Positions 23,812 through 50,055 of a stretch of 64,000 bases of DNA are shown one piece after another. The translations under genes were made by a program, and so were the position numbers. Numbering within the stretch: position 1 is the first letter of the stretch; each line of letters opens with the position of its first letter. The notes under the pieces were generated by a model. It did not search any database. It was not told the DNA's origin and saw only the letters and a list, made by a program, of their open reading frames with translations. This DNA comes from Leucobacter triazinivorans (GTDB taxonomy: Bacteria; Actinomycetota; Actinomycetes; Actinomycetales; Microbacteriaceae), in assembly GCF_004208635.1 (NCBI RefSeq), contig NZ_CP035806.1:744001-808000 (forward strand), read 5' to 3'.

Positions 23812-23902
23812 GTCATCCTGCGCGAAGGTCGCCCAGCGACCGCAGTCGCAGGATCCACACCCGGGGTGGATCCTGCGACTCGCTCCGCTCGCGCAGGATG
23901 AC
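23812..23902. repeat. Intact copy of dispersed palindromic repeat (about 91 bp)
   Basis: A palindromic element whose two ends are GTCATCCTGCGCGA (left) and TCGCGCAGGATGAC (right), with a central perfect 15-bp stem AGTCGCAGGATCCAC (23844-23858) and GTGGATCCTGCGACT (23866-23880) around a 7-nt loop. Related copies or halves occur at 23952-24001, 24323-24358, 31371-31452, 32861-32910 and 45824-45859. It would fold into a long hairpin on either strand. Confidence 0.9.
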
Positions 23903-23951: not shown

Positions 23952-24358
23952 GTCATCCTGCGCGAAGGTCGCGCAGCGACCGCAGTCGCAGGATCCACAC
24001 CTCACTCGTACCACCCGGCCGCGAGATCCTCCCACGACGGATTCTCACGCTCGATCAGGTCGATCTTCCAACGCCTCGAGCGATTCTTGATCTTCTTCTC
24101 GAGCGCGATCGCGTCGACGATGTTCTCTCCTGCGACGTACCAGACGAGGCTCGTCACGTCGTAGCGATCCGTGAACCCGGGAACGAGGTGGTTCCGATGC
24201 TCGTACACGCGGCGGGCAAGATCGGAGGTGACCCCGACATAGAGCGTGCCATTGTAACCGCTGGCGAGCAAATAGACGTACGCATGCCGATTCATACAGA
24301 CATCATCGCCGATGGGGGCGGATGGATCCTGCGACTCGCTCCGCTCGCGCAGGATGAC
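23952..24358. mobile_element. Palindromic repeat split around a GIY-YIG gene
   Basis: The left half of the repeat (23952-24001, ending GCAGGATCCACACC) abuts the stop codon of the GIY-YIG gene. The right half (24323-24358, TGGATCCTGCGACTCGCTCC onward) begins 27 bp upstream of its start. The gene thus occupies the centre of an otherwise normal copy. Whether this is a mobile unit is inference. Confidence 0.5.
24002..24295 (-). CDS. GIY-YIG nuclease domain protein
   Basis: A 97-residue single-domain GIY-YIG endonuclease. The motif pair appears as YVYLLAS (6-12) and LYVGVT (18-23), with Arg28/Arg29 in the following helix (DLARRVYEH), Glu66 in ALEKKIK as the metal-binding acidic residue, and the C-terminal ENPSWEDLA typical of the small YhbQ/UPF0213-like group. 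It should cleave DNA; the target is unknown. It has no operon partner and lies between inverted halves of the dispersed palindromic repeat, which suggests that it recognises or mobilises that repeat (inference). Confidence 0.85.
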   Translation of the reverse strand: MNRHAYVYLLASGYNGTLYVGVTSDLARRVYEHRNHLVPGFTDRYDVTSLVWYVAGENIVDAIALEKKIKNRSRRWKIDLIERENPSWEDLAAGWYE

Positions 24359-31370: not shown

Positions 31371-31452
31371 GCACCCCGTCATCCTGCGCGAAGGCGAGGA
31401 ACGAGCCGCACCCCGTCATCCTGCGCGAAGGCGAGGAACGAGCCGCAGTCGC
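31371..31452. repeat. Left part of dispersed palindromic repeat, duplicated and cut by IS110
   Basis: A 37-bp unit (31371-31407) is repeated exactly at 31408-31444; each contains CCCGTCATCCTGCGCGAAGG. The sequence then runs GCAGTCGC and stops at 31452, where the IS110 element begins. The missing half resumes at 32861 with AGGATCCACAC. Confidence 0.85.
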
Positions 31453-31509
31453 TGTGAGTCTTGGGGTGGCTGGTCTGGGACTGGCTGGCAGGGTAGATAT
31501 CGGCCGTTA

Positions 31510-31705
31510 CTTCCCTGAGTGTGTGGCTCTCTCAGTCGCTGACCCCGGCCCGTTGTTGTGATCGGGTGGGTGTCTGGATCCTGATTTGTCCACCCTGTGG
31601 GCGGAGGCGCGGTCGGTGCTGCCCTGCCCACTCCAATGACTTGATCAGAAGAACGCCCGCCCCGGGTGAGAAGGGGTGTGGCTCGTCACAGTGTTGTCTT
31701 GGCGT
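31510..31705 (+). ncRNA. Candidate IS110 bridge RNA
   Basis: Two internal-loop hairpins are visible. Target loop: CAGTCGCT (31533-31540), then a stem GAC/GTC, CCC/GGG, CCCG/CGGG (31541-31574), then TGGATCCTG (31575-31583). The first segment equals the left target half and the second is the reverse complement of the right half CAGGATCCA. Donor loop: AGAAGAA (31647-31653), a stem GCC/GGC and CCCC/GGGG (31655-31682), then TCACAG (31686-31691), inside an outer stem CCAA.GAC (31633-31640) with GTC.TTGG (31696-31702). AGAAGAA matches the element's right end (32852-32858) and TCACAG is complementary to its left end CTGTGA (31452-31457). This is the arrangement known for IS621-type bridge RNAs. RNA ends are estimates. 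Confidence 0.65.
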
Positions 31706-31776
31706 GAATTTTCCCCAGGTCAGCACCGGCCGCGTGACGGTCGGTACCGATCCTTTGGAAGAAAGACACCACCGCC

Positions 31777-32844
31777 ATGACTATTGTCGCGCATCAGCAT
31801 CCGTATGTGATTGGGGTCGATACCCACGCCCGTACGCACACCTACGCGGTCCTGTCCCCGCTCGGGGAACTCCTGGACATCGCCCAGTTCCCGACGACGA
31901 CCGCGGGGATGCAACGAGCAATCTCGTGGGGTGCGCGCCGCACTGGTGGTGATCTCGACACGCTCTGGGTGATCGAAGGCACCGCTTCCTATGGCGCACG
32001 ATTGGTGATGCTCGTCGCGAGCACCGGATACGAAGTCGTGGAAGCGCCGGTGACGCCTGGGCGGGTGCGGGCCGGGAAAGGGAAATCGGATCCGTTCGAT
32101 GCCCGCCAGATCGCGGCTGCCGCACTCCCGCTGCAGGAGATAGAGTTGCGTCGTCCTCGGGCCGGGCACGGGTATCGTCTGGCATTGCGTGTGCTATTGA
32201 CCGCGAGAGATGATCTCACGCACGAGCACACGCAGAAGATGAATGCGCTCACGGCATTGCTGCGAGTGCATGATCTCGGCATCGATGCCCGCCGCCCACT
32301 CACACGTACCCAGGTCGCACAGATCGCGAAGTGGCGATGTCGCTCGGAAGAGATCGCGCTGCAGATCGCGCGTGCAGAAGCTGTTCGGCTTGCGAAACGA
32401 TTGAGCGAGCTCGCGTTGGAGATCCGTTCAAACCAAGACCAGATCCATACCCTGCTCCAGGCCACACCAGCGAGCGAGTTGCTCGAGATCACAGGAATCG
32501 GTCCCATCGGGGCGGCCGTGATCTACACGGCCTGGTCGCATCAGGGGCGGGTTCGTTCGGAAGCATCGTTCGCGGCACTGGCGGGGGTGTCCCCGGTTCC
32601 CGCGTCGTCGGGGAACACCGTCCGGCACCGATTGAACCGCGGCGGGGATCGGAGAGTGAACCGGGCACTACATCTCGCCGCGGTCACCAGAGCGCGTTGC
32701 GACGAAGAAACCAAAGCATATATTGCGAAACGGACCGCGCAAGGACGCACCCCGAAAGAGATTCGCCGCTGCCTGAAACGCTACCTCGCACGCCGCGTCT
32801 ACAAGATCCTCAACGCAGCAACAACACCCCCGACCCCGAATTGA
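31777..32844 (+). CDS. IS110-family transposase (DEDD recombinase)
   Basis: A 355-residue transposase. The N-terminal RuvC-like DEDD domain shows GVDTH (Asp15), WVIEGTASYG (Glu67) and GKGKSDPFDARQIA (Asp105/Asp108). The C-terminal Tnp domain has LLEITGIGPIGAAVIYTAW and FAALAGVSPVPASSGNTVR, the helix-hairpin and Ser-containing motif of the family. Length is typical. Codon use is poorer in G/C-ending codons than in its neighbours, fitting recent transfer. GGAAGAAAG precedes ATG 31777. It is expected to act with the upstream bridge RNA. Confidence 0.96.
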   Translation: MTIVAHQHPYVIGVDTHARTHTYAVLSPLGELLDIAQFPTTTAGMQRAISWGARRTGGDLDTLWVIEGTASYGARLVMLVASTGYEVVEAPVTPGRVRAGKGKSDPFDARQIAAAALPLQEIELRRPRAGHGYRLALRVLLTARDDLTHEHTQKMNALTALLRVHDLGIDARRPLTRTQVAQIAKWRCRSEEIALQIARAEAVRLAKRLSELALEIRSNQDQIHTLLQATPASELLEITGIGPIGAAVIYTAWSHQGRVRSEASFAALAGVSPVPASSGNTVRHRLNRGGDRRVNRALHLAAVTRARCDEETKAYIAKRTAQGRTPKEIRRCLKRYLARRVYKILNAATTPPTPN

Positions 32845-32860
32845 CAAACATAGAAGAATC

Positions 32861-32910
32861 AGGATCCACACGCCTGGATCCTGCGACTCGCAAGCTCACG
32901 CAGGATGACC
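32861..32910. repeat. Right part of dispersed palindromic repeat, after IS110
   Basis: AGGATCCA-CACGCC-TGGATCCT hairpin followed by GCGACTCGCAAGCTCACGC and AGGATGACC. It completes the copy whose left part ends at 31452. Confidence 0.85.
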
Positions 32911-48794: not shown

Positions 48795-49946
48795 CTAGAG
48801 CCCGATCTGCTCGCTCAGGGTCTTCAGCCAGCCCTCGCGGCCGCGCTCGATGTCCGCTGCGGGCAGGTCGTGGGTCTGGTCGGGCCCGGGCTCGGGGGCG
48901 AAGCGCGCCCAGGCCTCCGGCATTTCGATCGAGTCGTCGACGGGCGTCATGTACATAGCGTCGGGGATCGTCTGCTGGAACTCGGACGAGACGAGGTAGT
49001 CGACCACCGCCCTCGCACCCGCCTCGTTGGCCGCGCCGGCGAGCACACCCGCGTACTCGACCTGGCGCGTGCAGGTGTCGAGCAGCGCCTTCGTCGACGA
49101 CGCGGACCCGTCCTCGGACACGGTGAACGCCGGGGAGGACGCGTACGAGAGCACGATCGGCCGGGTGCCGCCCTCTCCGCCCTGGGTGAACTGGCCATAG
49201 TAGGCATCGCTCCACCCCTGCTCGATCCGCGCGCCGTTGTCCGCGAGACGCGACCAGTAGTCGGCGAACCCGTCCTCGCCGAACTCCGCGACCGTGCCGA
49301 CGAGGAACGAGGCCCCGGTCGACGAGGCGGTCGGATCCAGCAGCACGGTCAGGTCACGGTACGCGGGATCTGCGAGATCCTCGTAGCTCCGGGGCTCGGC
49401 GACGCCCTCGGCGGCGAACCAGTCGCTGTCGACGTTGATGCAGACCGCCCCGAGATCGACCGGCACGAGTGCGAACGGCGTCTCGCCTGCGCCGCCCGCG
49501 TCAGCGGAGGCCTCCGCCTCCGCCTCGGGATCGAGGATCGCGTAGTCGTTCCCGCTCTCGGGGAAGCCGACGGGACGGTGCGGCACGACGACGTCGTTCT
49601 CGACGATGCGCGACGCGAAGATGGTGTCGACGCCGAAGAAGGCGTCGGCGATGGGCGCCCCCTTCGTGAGCACGAGCGTGTTGGTCAGCTCGCCGCCGTC
49701 TCCCGCCGAGACCACTTCGACCTCGTAGCCCGTCGCCTCGCTCGCGGCCTCCGCGAACGCCTCGTTGGGAAACGAGTCGTGCACGGCGAGGGTGACGGTG
49801 CCGGCGGCGTCCCCGCCGGCCTGGCCGGGCCCGTCGGACGGTGTCGCCGCGCAGCCCGCGAGTGCGAGCCCCCCTGCGACGGCGAGCGCGACGGCCGGCG
49901 GCGCCGCCCGGTATCCGAGACTCTTCGAGAAGCGTGCAGACGTCAT
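48795..49946 (-). CDS. thiB: Thiamine-type ABC substrate-binding lipoprotein
   Basis: A 383-residue binding protein with lipobox LAGC near residue 32. The mature part matches ThiB/TbpA: TVTLAVHDSFPNEAFAEAAS, TNTLVLTKGAPIADAFFGVDTI, VVPHRPVGFPESGNDYAILD, and the C-terminal VVDYLVSSEFQQTIPDAMYMTPVDD. It would capture thiamine at the cell surface. It is the first gene after the TPP riboswitch (49957-50041), so thiamine pyrophosphate should repress it. ATG 49946 is preceded by GGAAGGAAG, which lies just at the 3' edge of the riboswitch. Confidence 0.9.
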   Translation of the reverse strand: MTSARFSKSLGYRAAPPAVALAVAGGLALAGCAATPSDGPGQAGGDAAGTVTLAVHDSFPNEAFAEAASEATGYEVEVVSAGDGGELTNTLVLTKGAPIADAFFGVDTIFASRIVENDVVVPHRPVGFPESGNDYAILDPEAEAEASADAGGAGETPFALVPVDLGAVCINVDSDWFAAEGVAEPRSYEDLADPAYRDLTVLLDPTASSTGASFLVGTVAEFGEDGFADYWSRLADNGARIEQGWSDAYYGQFTQGGEGGTRPIVLSYASSPAFTVSEDGSASSTKALLDTCTRQVEYAGVLAGAANEAGARAVVDYLVSSEFQQTIPDAMYMTPVDDSIEMPEAWARFAPEPGPDQTHDLPAADIERGREGWLKTLSEQIGL

Positions 49947-49956
49947 CGAGGCTTCC

Positions 49957-50041
49957 TTCCTCCGCTGGCATGAACCAGATCAGGTTGAACGGTCGGAGCT
50001 CGCGTGCTCCCTCTCAGCCCGCCGCGTGCGGACTCCCGTGG
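49957..50041 (-). promoter_or_regulatory. TPP riboswitch (THI element)
   Basis: Read on the minus strand: ACGGGAGTCCGC ... GGGCTGAGAGGGA ... ACCGTTCAACCTGATCTGG, then TTCATGCCAGCGGAGGAA. These are the conserved CTGAGA, AACCTGATCTGG and GCCAGCGGAGG segments of the TPP aptamer in the right order. The RBS of the thiamine binding-protein gene overlaps its 3' end, so translational control is likely. Confidence 0.96.
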
Positions 50042-50055
50042 ATTGCCCCTCCAGA

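Follow-up and report, generated by a model that had tools for sequence, protein, structure and literature searches.

The window, by which we mean the whole 64,000-nucleotide stretch of Leucobacter triazinivorans DNA that was analysed, carries an IS110-group element that very probably moves by bridge-RNA-guided recombination and whose RNA appears to direct it to one arm of a dispersed, REP-like palindrome. This reading is built on the ends of the element, its guides, the covariation between guides and flanks, the covariation within the RNA and an asymmetry of the two junctions, all of which are read from sequence. Moreover, we consider it probable that this IS110 clade, mostly actinobacterial by its named records, recombines on a core of one base: the overlap of the two target guides is a single C with the handshake bases directly beside it, any base read by the guide may follow this C, and the top strand would be cut one base earlier than in IS621 relative to the right guide and the handshake.

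The element and its bridge RNA

The complete insertion sequence spans 31453..32860 on the forward strand (1408 bp), from a T at 31453 to a C at 32860, the same ends that a first-pass annotation had proposed. The ends were set by comparing the flanks with those of a second copy (G000:C1:2253827-2255234) in the 3.48-Mb, one-contig genome, which aligns over positions 1-1408 with one mismatch. The flanks of the two copies are unlike beyond the junction words that they have in common (GCAGTCGC at the left junction, AGGATCCACAC at the right one), and both left flanks hold related repeat sequence farther out. Since the outer flanks differ, the copies represent two separate insertions and not one duplicated segment.

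The recombinase gene (31777..32844, forward strand, 355 aa) was assigned by Pfam domains and by alignment with IS621. Its product contains DEDD_Tnp_IS110 (8.1e-19) and Transposase_20 (9.3e-21), aligns with the IS621 recombinase (PDB 8wt6; phmmer, 6.7e-14) including the regions of the D, E, D..D and Ser-Gly motifs, and is also related to the recombinase of ISCro4, which has been solved like that of IS621. The two domains together with the Ser-Gly motif are those of the IS110 family and the IS110 group. A coupling of the residue corresponding to IS621 G63, which contacts the core T, with changes of the core was considered and dropped; the corresponding residues vary within the group.

The non-coding left end measures 324 nt (31453-31776) and the right end 16 nt (32845-32860), and such a long, RNA-bearing left end with a short right end is the layout of the IS110 group. 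IS1111 elements have the opposite layout, with the long and short ends swapped. Among inverted repeats of at least 10 nt, none joins the two tips in the manner of long subterminal inverted repeats; one pair (I1) connects the right target guide with the right junction. The left tip TGTGAGTC (31453..31460, forward strand) is the right donor sequence, its first bases being complementary to the right donor guide, and the right tip AGAAGAATC (32852..32860, forward strand) is the left donor sequence and matches the left donor guide. TTGACA lies in the right end (32841..32846, forward strand), and TTGAC is found at the same place in all 70 parsed loci described below. It is likely the -35 box, with no clear -10 box, of a promoter spanning the joined ends of a circle.

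The bridge RNA region (31471..31741, forward strand) was defined by RNAalifold and pair counts over 20 left ends. Their consensus, with 62 pairs in nine helices, combines a 5' stem with one loop for target binding and one for donor binding, and four guides are located inside its two internal loops. In these left ends 93.0% of the cells are paired versus 83.8% in shuffles, and 37 of the 62 pairs are changed on both sides versus 21.6 in shuffles; neither value was reached by any of 500 shuffles. When the partners were slid by 1-3 columns as a control, only 32-46% of the cells were paired. Thus, the left ends contain two internal loops in a covarying structure, as a bridge RNA does. The single-sequence fold of the left end in the window is also better than all of 200 shuffles (z -2.78), with loops that only partly match the consensus, so the structure rests on the alignment. 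No Rfam family was found in the left end; the only match at gathering score in the window was a TPP riboswitch elsewhere (49940-50049, reverse strand, 57.9 bits).

The target-binding loop (31517..31597) has an outer stem at 31517-31527/31588-31597 and an apical stem at 31541-31546/31568-31574 (helices 5 and 6). It contains the 9-nt left target guide CTCAGTCGC (31531..31539), which ends at the shared C, and the right target guide TGGATCCTG (31575..31583), antisense to CAGGATCCA, both delimited by their footprints over 23 guide classes. These are followed by the handshake guide AT (31584..31585), antisense to the donor bases just 5' of C, as judged from cognate and non-cognate scores. The donor-binding loop (31629..31706) has an outer stem at 31629-31640/31696-31706 and an apical stem at 31655-31662/31674-31682 (helices 7 and 8). 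It contains the left donor guide AGAAGAA (31647..31653), which matches the right tip of the element, the right donor guide TCACAG (31686..31691), antisense to C followed by TGTGA, and the handshake guide TG (31692..31693), antisense, with a single G-U pair, to the target bases immediately 5' of C. All these parts lie on the forward strand. The first-pass annotation had described two hairpins flanked by guides and had suggested a covariation check; all of the pieces are present and the hairpins covary. Its left guide word CAGTCGCT is present as well, but it extends to 31540, one base beyond the guide.

Both loops contain a motif pair GTGRCYC/TGYCC, which occupies the outer side of the target loop and the inner side of the donor loop (A1 columns 77-83, 141-145, 211-215 and 242-248). 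This placement agrees with the pseudo-symmetric loops described for IS621.

Guides and flanks among the relatives

Relatives were collected by recombinase searches at four taxonomic levels, namely the genus (54 genomes, E ≤0.001), the family (398 genomes, 1e-90), the order (396 genomes, 1e-85) and the class (394 genomes, 1e-85), and in plasmid records. These sets overlap, and loci were taken among the matches listed; a scan of genome contigs gave one relative (L001). Eighty-two loci among the matches listed were put through a parser that reads the guides by a fixed anchor rule, and 70 of them gave both ends and both loops. The 12 unparsed loci (L039-L045, L080, L084, L096, L103 and L112) had an end that was lost, truncated or diverged. 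Partial or distant matches (L046-L050, L054-L058 and L061-L063) and further copies of distant elements (L052, L053 and L060) were kept out of the parser. The 70 loci carry 34 different guide pairs, which were merged into 23 guide classes by joining guides alike at ≥10 of 14 letters, and it is by this merging only that kinship is handled in the permutation test. The parser demanded a C before a listed left tip starting with T, and TC at the right tip. These end bases were part of the search patterns, so the constancy of the left-junction T, of the preceding C and of the right-tip TC is partly built in. The free base after the shared C in the target (N), the guide letters and the C of the right guide were unconstrained. 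Two left ends given by the script were wrong (L083 and L118), and L099 shows an apparent loss of three bases at the left junction.

With the 23 classes as the unit, the left guide scored 7.43 of 8 against its own flank versus 3.31 against non-cognate ones at the best of three registers, and 5.96 of 8 versus 2.49 in a fixed register, while the right guide scored 4.30 of 5 versus 1.23. The handshake guides also followed their partners, the one in the target loop with 1.83 of 2 for cognate and 1.29 for non-cognate donors, and the one in the donor loop with 1.57 of 2 for cognate and 0.54 for non-cognate targets. The left donor guide scored 6.13 of 7 versus 5.36; the donor signal is weaker because the donors are conserved. 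None of 20,000 permutations reached any of the six guide measures, which means that the agreement is more than chance. The loops therefore covary with both target and donor, as is characteristic of bridge RNAs, and the match of the target guides to their own flanks across all 23 classes supports the bridge-RNA interpretation that the first-pass annotation had offered.

The footprint of the left guide covers offsets -8..0 (0.78-1.00) and drops to 0.35 at -9 and 0.13 at +1, with the register fitted on -7..0. That of the right guide covers offsets 0..+5 (0.74-1.00) and drops to 0.26 at +6 (23 classes). The two right-guide bases beside the shared C agree with the donor (0.87 and 0.96) rather than with the target (0.30 and 0.00).

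Twelve plasmid loci, fetched among the 20 matches listed of 1926 matching records (H6 and H14-H20 were left out), served as a hold-out. Five of them were parsed at both ends and seven were not, and the right guide reads N in all five. In L142 and L149 the left guide matches at just 3 of 8 positions, whichever allowed register is taken, and the guide of L138 belongs to a class already represented. The loci L143-L146 and L148, on plasmids of Arthrobacter and Pseudarthrobacter, have a readable left end and target guide, and no pattern-matching right tip in the 200 bases scanned past the match.

Some other loci deserve mention. In two genomes of one genus (G561 and G548; L093, L095, L118-L121 and L126-L129), two IS110 elements with different guides occupy two sites of what appears to be a single palindromic repeat (TTACTACCTGACGGCGGCCCAG... 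/ ...CTGGGCCGCCGTCAGGTAGTAA), and G548 holds both elements. The left tip of L111 abuts what appears to be the left target guide of the element itself, so that the left end is partly repeated; recombination may have occurred at the DNA of the guide itself, which spells the left target half.

The core, the cut and the target repeat

The junctions read C-T on the left and C-N on the right. Over the 70 loci N is C in 26, A in 25, G in 10 and T in 9, so that it is unlike the donor T in 61. The right guide reads N in 69 loci (the miss is L090) and in the first member of all 34 guide pairs, and it codes the shared position as C in 70 of 70. Distant relatives, as read by eye, have another donor base than T after C, namely A in L043 and G in L039 and L040. 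An IS621-type core, with CT in both DNAs and an almost invariant T, does not describe these loci, since the target has T in only 9 of 70. The first-pass annotation had inferred CT on the left and CA on the right; this mismatch is borne out and is systematic, only the C being common in the group. Its appeal to IS621-type logic holds for the way in which the guides work, but not for the CT core. At the two handshake positions, the left junctions keep the guided target bases in 52 of the 70 loci and are donor-like in one (L099), the other 17 being uninformative or matching neither.

These junctions bear on where the strands are exchanged. The target guides overlap on C only, which would place the top-strand exchange at that C. 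The handshake bases stay those of the target and yet the next base is that of the donor, and a cut at C accounts for such a junction without repair. Because C is common to target and donor, the cut may fall before or after it. The left guide of IS621 is 9 nt long and ends at the last base before the cut (PMC11208158); since our left guide is also 9 nt long and ends at C, a cut just after C is favoured. Counted from such a cut, the right guide reaches +5, like an artificially extended right guide of IS621. The wild-type right guide of IS621, with 4 nt (PMC11208158), is shorter than our footprint, so the register is supported only by the left guide and the extended IS621 form. The overlap of the two guides would thus shrink from two bases in IS621 to one.

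We infer the transcription of the RNA, its binding, the circle and the exact cut from these features and propose the following cycle. The element would be excised as a circle in which the right tip is joined to the left tip through C, and the RNA of the left end would be transcribed and then bound by the recombinase. The first loop would pair with the genomic target, using 9 sense nucleotides for the left half and at least 6 antisense nucleotides for the right half, and the second loop with the circle junction, while the two-base handshake guide in each loop would pair with the strand coming in from the other DNA. The top strands would be exchanged at C, most likely just after it, leaving the target N at the right junction and the donor T at the left. 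In the present element the RNA would be programmed for CAGTCGC followed by AGGATCCA, one arm of the dispersed REP-like palindrome.

The left target half CAGTCGC lies outside the element at 31446..31452, its final C being the shared core base, and the right target half AGGATCCA, whose first base is N, at 32861..32868 (both on the forward strand). Both halves are identical at the second copy, and a G precedes the left half in both. The word CAGTCGCAGGATCCA is dispersed through the genome. The pattern CAGTCGCNGGATCCA has 134 matches at ≤1 mismatch in the 3.48 Mb, versus 0 and 1 on the two strands for the reversed-pattern control; within the window, a related pattern with W at N has six matches at ≤2 mismatches versus 0.41 expected. 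Among the 21 perfect genomic matches N is A in 20 and T in one, which means that an intact site has CA where the left junction has CT. In the other genomes of the genus (53 searched), CAGTCGCNGGATCCA is abundant in three (64 matches in G005, 38 in G053 and 22 in G028) and has 0-10 matches in the remaining 50. Both insertions sit at CAGTCGC, although exact matches make up only 21 of the 134 sites and 62 of the 79 listed one-mismatch sites start with GAGTCGC, while the left guide spells CAGTCGC; with two insertion events this preference is only suggestive. The first-pass annotation had proposed a look at other insertions of the element, and the one further copy found in the genome agrees with it in both the loops and the target halves.

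A gene for a GIY-YIG nuclease of 97 aa (PF01541, 8.5e-13) is located at 24002-24295 on the reverse strand of the window, and copies of the palindrome targeted by the IS110 element flank it on both sides (23843-23881, 23983-23997 and 24323-24337). This nuclease may contribute to the spread of the repeat.

The guided reading with a one-base core has to be weighed against three others, one of which concerns the cut. The top strand of IS621 is cut after CT, where T is almost invariant and the first base can be changed, AT, GT and TT having worked as well (PMC11208158, PMC11208160). Judged from the right guide and the adjoining handshake, our C sits at the first core base of IS621, and the cut might accordingly fall one base after C, with the N/T mismatch repaired in the same way each time. 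However, the scheme for IS621 includes a heteroduplex over four positions before the cut (PMC11208158), and our junctions mostly keep the target handshake bases. A donor base after C despite those target bases would require a split repair, nearly always in the same direction. Moreover, N is read by the right guide in nearly every locus and yet is seldom T. We therefore regard a cut at the IS621 position as unlikely.

Recognition of the palindrome or hairpin itself by the recombinase or host factors, with the guide matches as by-products, has a precedent in the earlier proposal that transposases recognise palindromic REPs (PMC1525189), and the target of the window copy is indeed one arm of a 14-bp perfect inverted repeat. 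On the other hand, about 400 bp of downstream sequence hold no inverted partner arm for the repeat copy in which the second element lies. What is targeted is therefore a linear word of about 15 bp, with no need for the hairpin. In 20 of 24 loci of relatives (one of them, L118, with a wrong left end) the inverted repeat is no better than those of more than 5 of 100 simple letter shuffles, and guides and flanks vary together over the 23 classes. We hold this reading to be very improbable, and the palindromy of the target seems incidental: both copies (2 of 2) lie in the dispersed palindrome, one in a full palindrome and the other in a single arm. The palindrome targeting of the first-pass annotation is thus retained as guidance to a dispersed repeat, on the strength of the guide/flank agreement and the two copies, but not as a need for the hairpin as such. 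Chance matches between a GC-rich leader and GC-rich flanks could be imagined in so GC-rich a region, with some of the words being short. The permutations described above and the slid-structure controls, which fall far short, leave this reading with next to no probability.

Comparison with known IS110 elements

Bridge RNAs and the targeting of REPs by IS110 elements are already established (PMC11208160, PMC11208158, PMC11187229, PMC1525189), and palindrome targeting in itself is ordinary for the family. The part of our results worth keeping is the one-base core with a free neighbour that is read by the guide. Moreover, the 70 loci with their 23 guide classes provide a clean natural record of repeated reprogramming within a single recombinase clade, and the guides for target, donor and handshake each vary with their partners. 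Where IS110 recombinases cut thereby becomes a specific, testable question, which bears on the target rules of bridge-RNA tools. In a literature collection that excludes bioRxiv preprints and most subscription papers, the two IS621 papers were the only ones found on IS110 core dinucleotides, and a one-base core rule was not found in the available parts.

Like ISPpu9, ISPpu10, ISPa11 and ISRm19, which are IS110-family elements with all tabulated copies in dispersed palindromes (PMC1525189), the present element is inserted in such repeats. The work on those four elements is older than guide RNAs, and the word "Actinobacteria" has no occurrence in the available part of its text.

ISEc21 and its seekRNA (PMC11187229) resemble our element in having target-matching words in the upstream non-coding region, with the bottom-strand match before the top-strand match. 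ISEc21 is reported to insert without duplicating its target (PMC11187229). This is compatible with a core of one base at most, and the lack of a CT duplication is hence not entirely new. Neither a donor loop nor a free base after one shared C is among the features described in the available part of that account, with which we compared by description only. Targets of ISEc21 lie within transposase genes of other insertion sequences (PMC11187229), and L087, L122, L038 and L091 similarly lie in or beside open reading frames that by appearance resemble other transposases (...GTSNGPTEAI and ...FVDWYN at the junction).

The closest parallel is IS621 of E. coli (PMC11208160, PMC11208158), which shares with our element a related, if distant (phmmer, 6.7e-14), recombinase, a long left end, a two-loop RNA, handshake guides and a REP target. 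As in IS621, the left guide (9 nt) is in sense and the right guide in antisense. In contrast to the CT core that IS621 has in both DNAs, target and donor have only the C in common here, and the next base of the target is free. The CT core of the model system thus seems not to be general, one C being sufficient in this clade. If this is true, a one-base core drops the requirement for T that holds in IS621 and broadens both the natural and the programmable targets.
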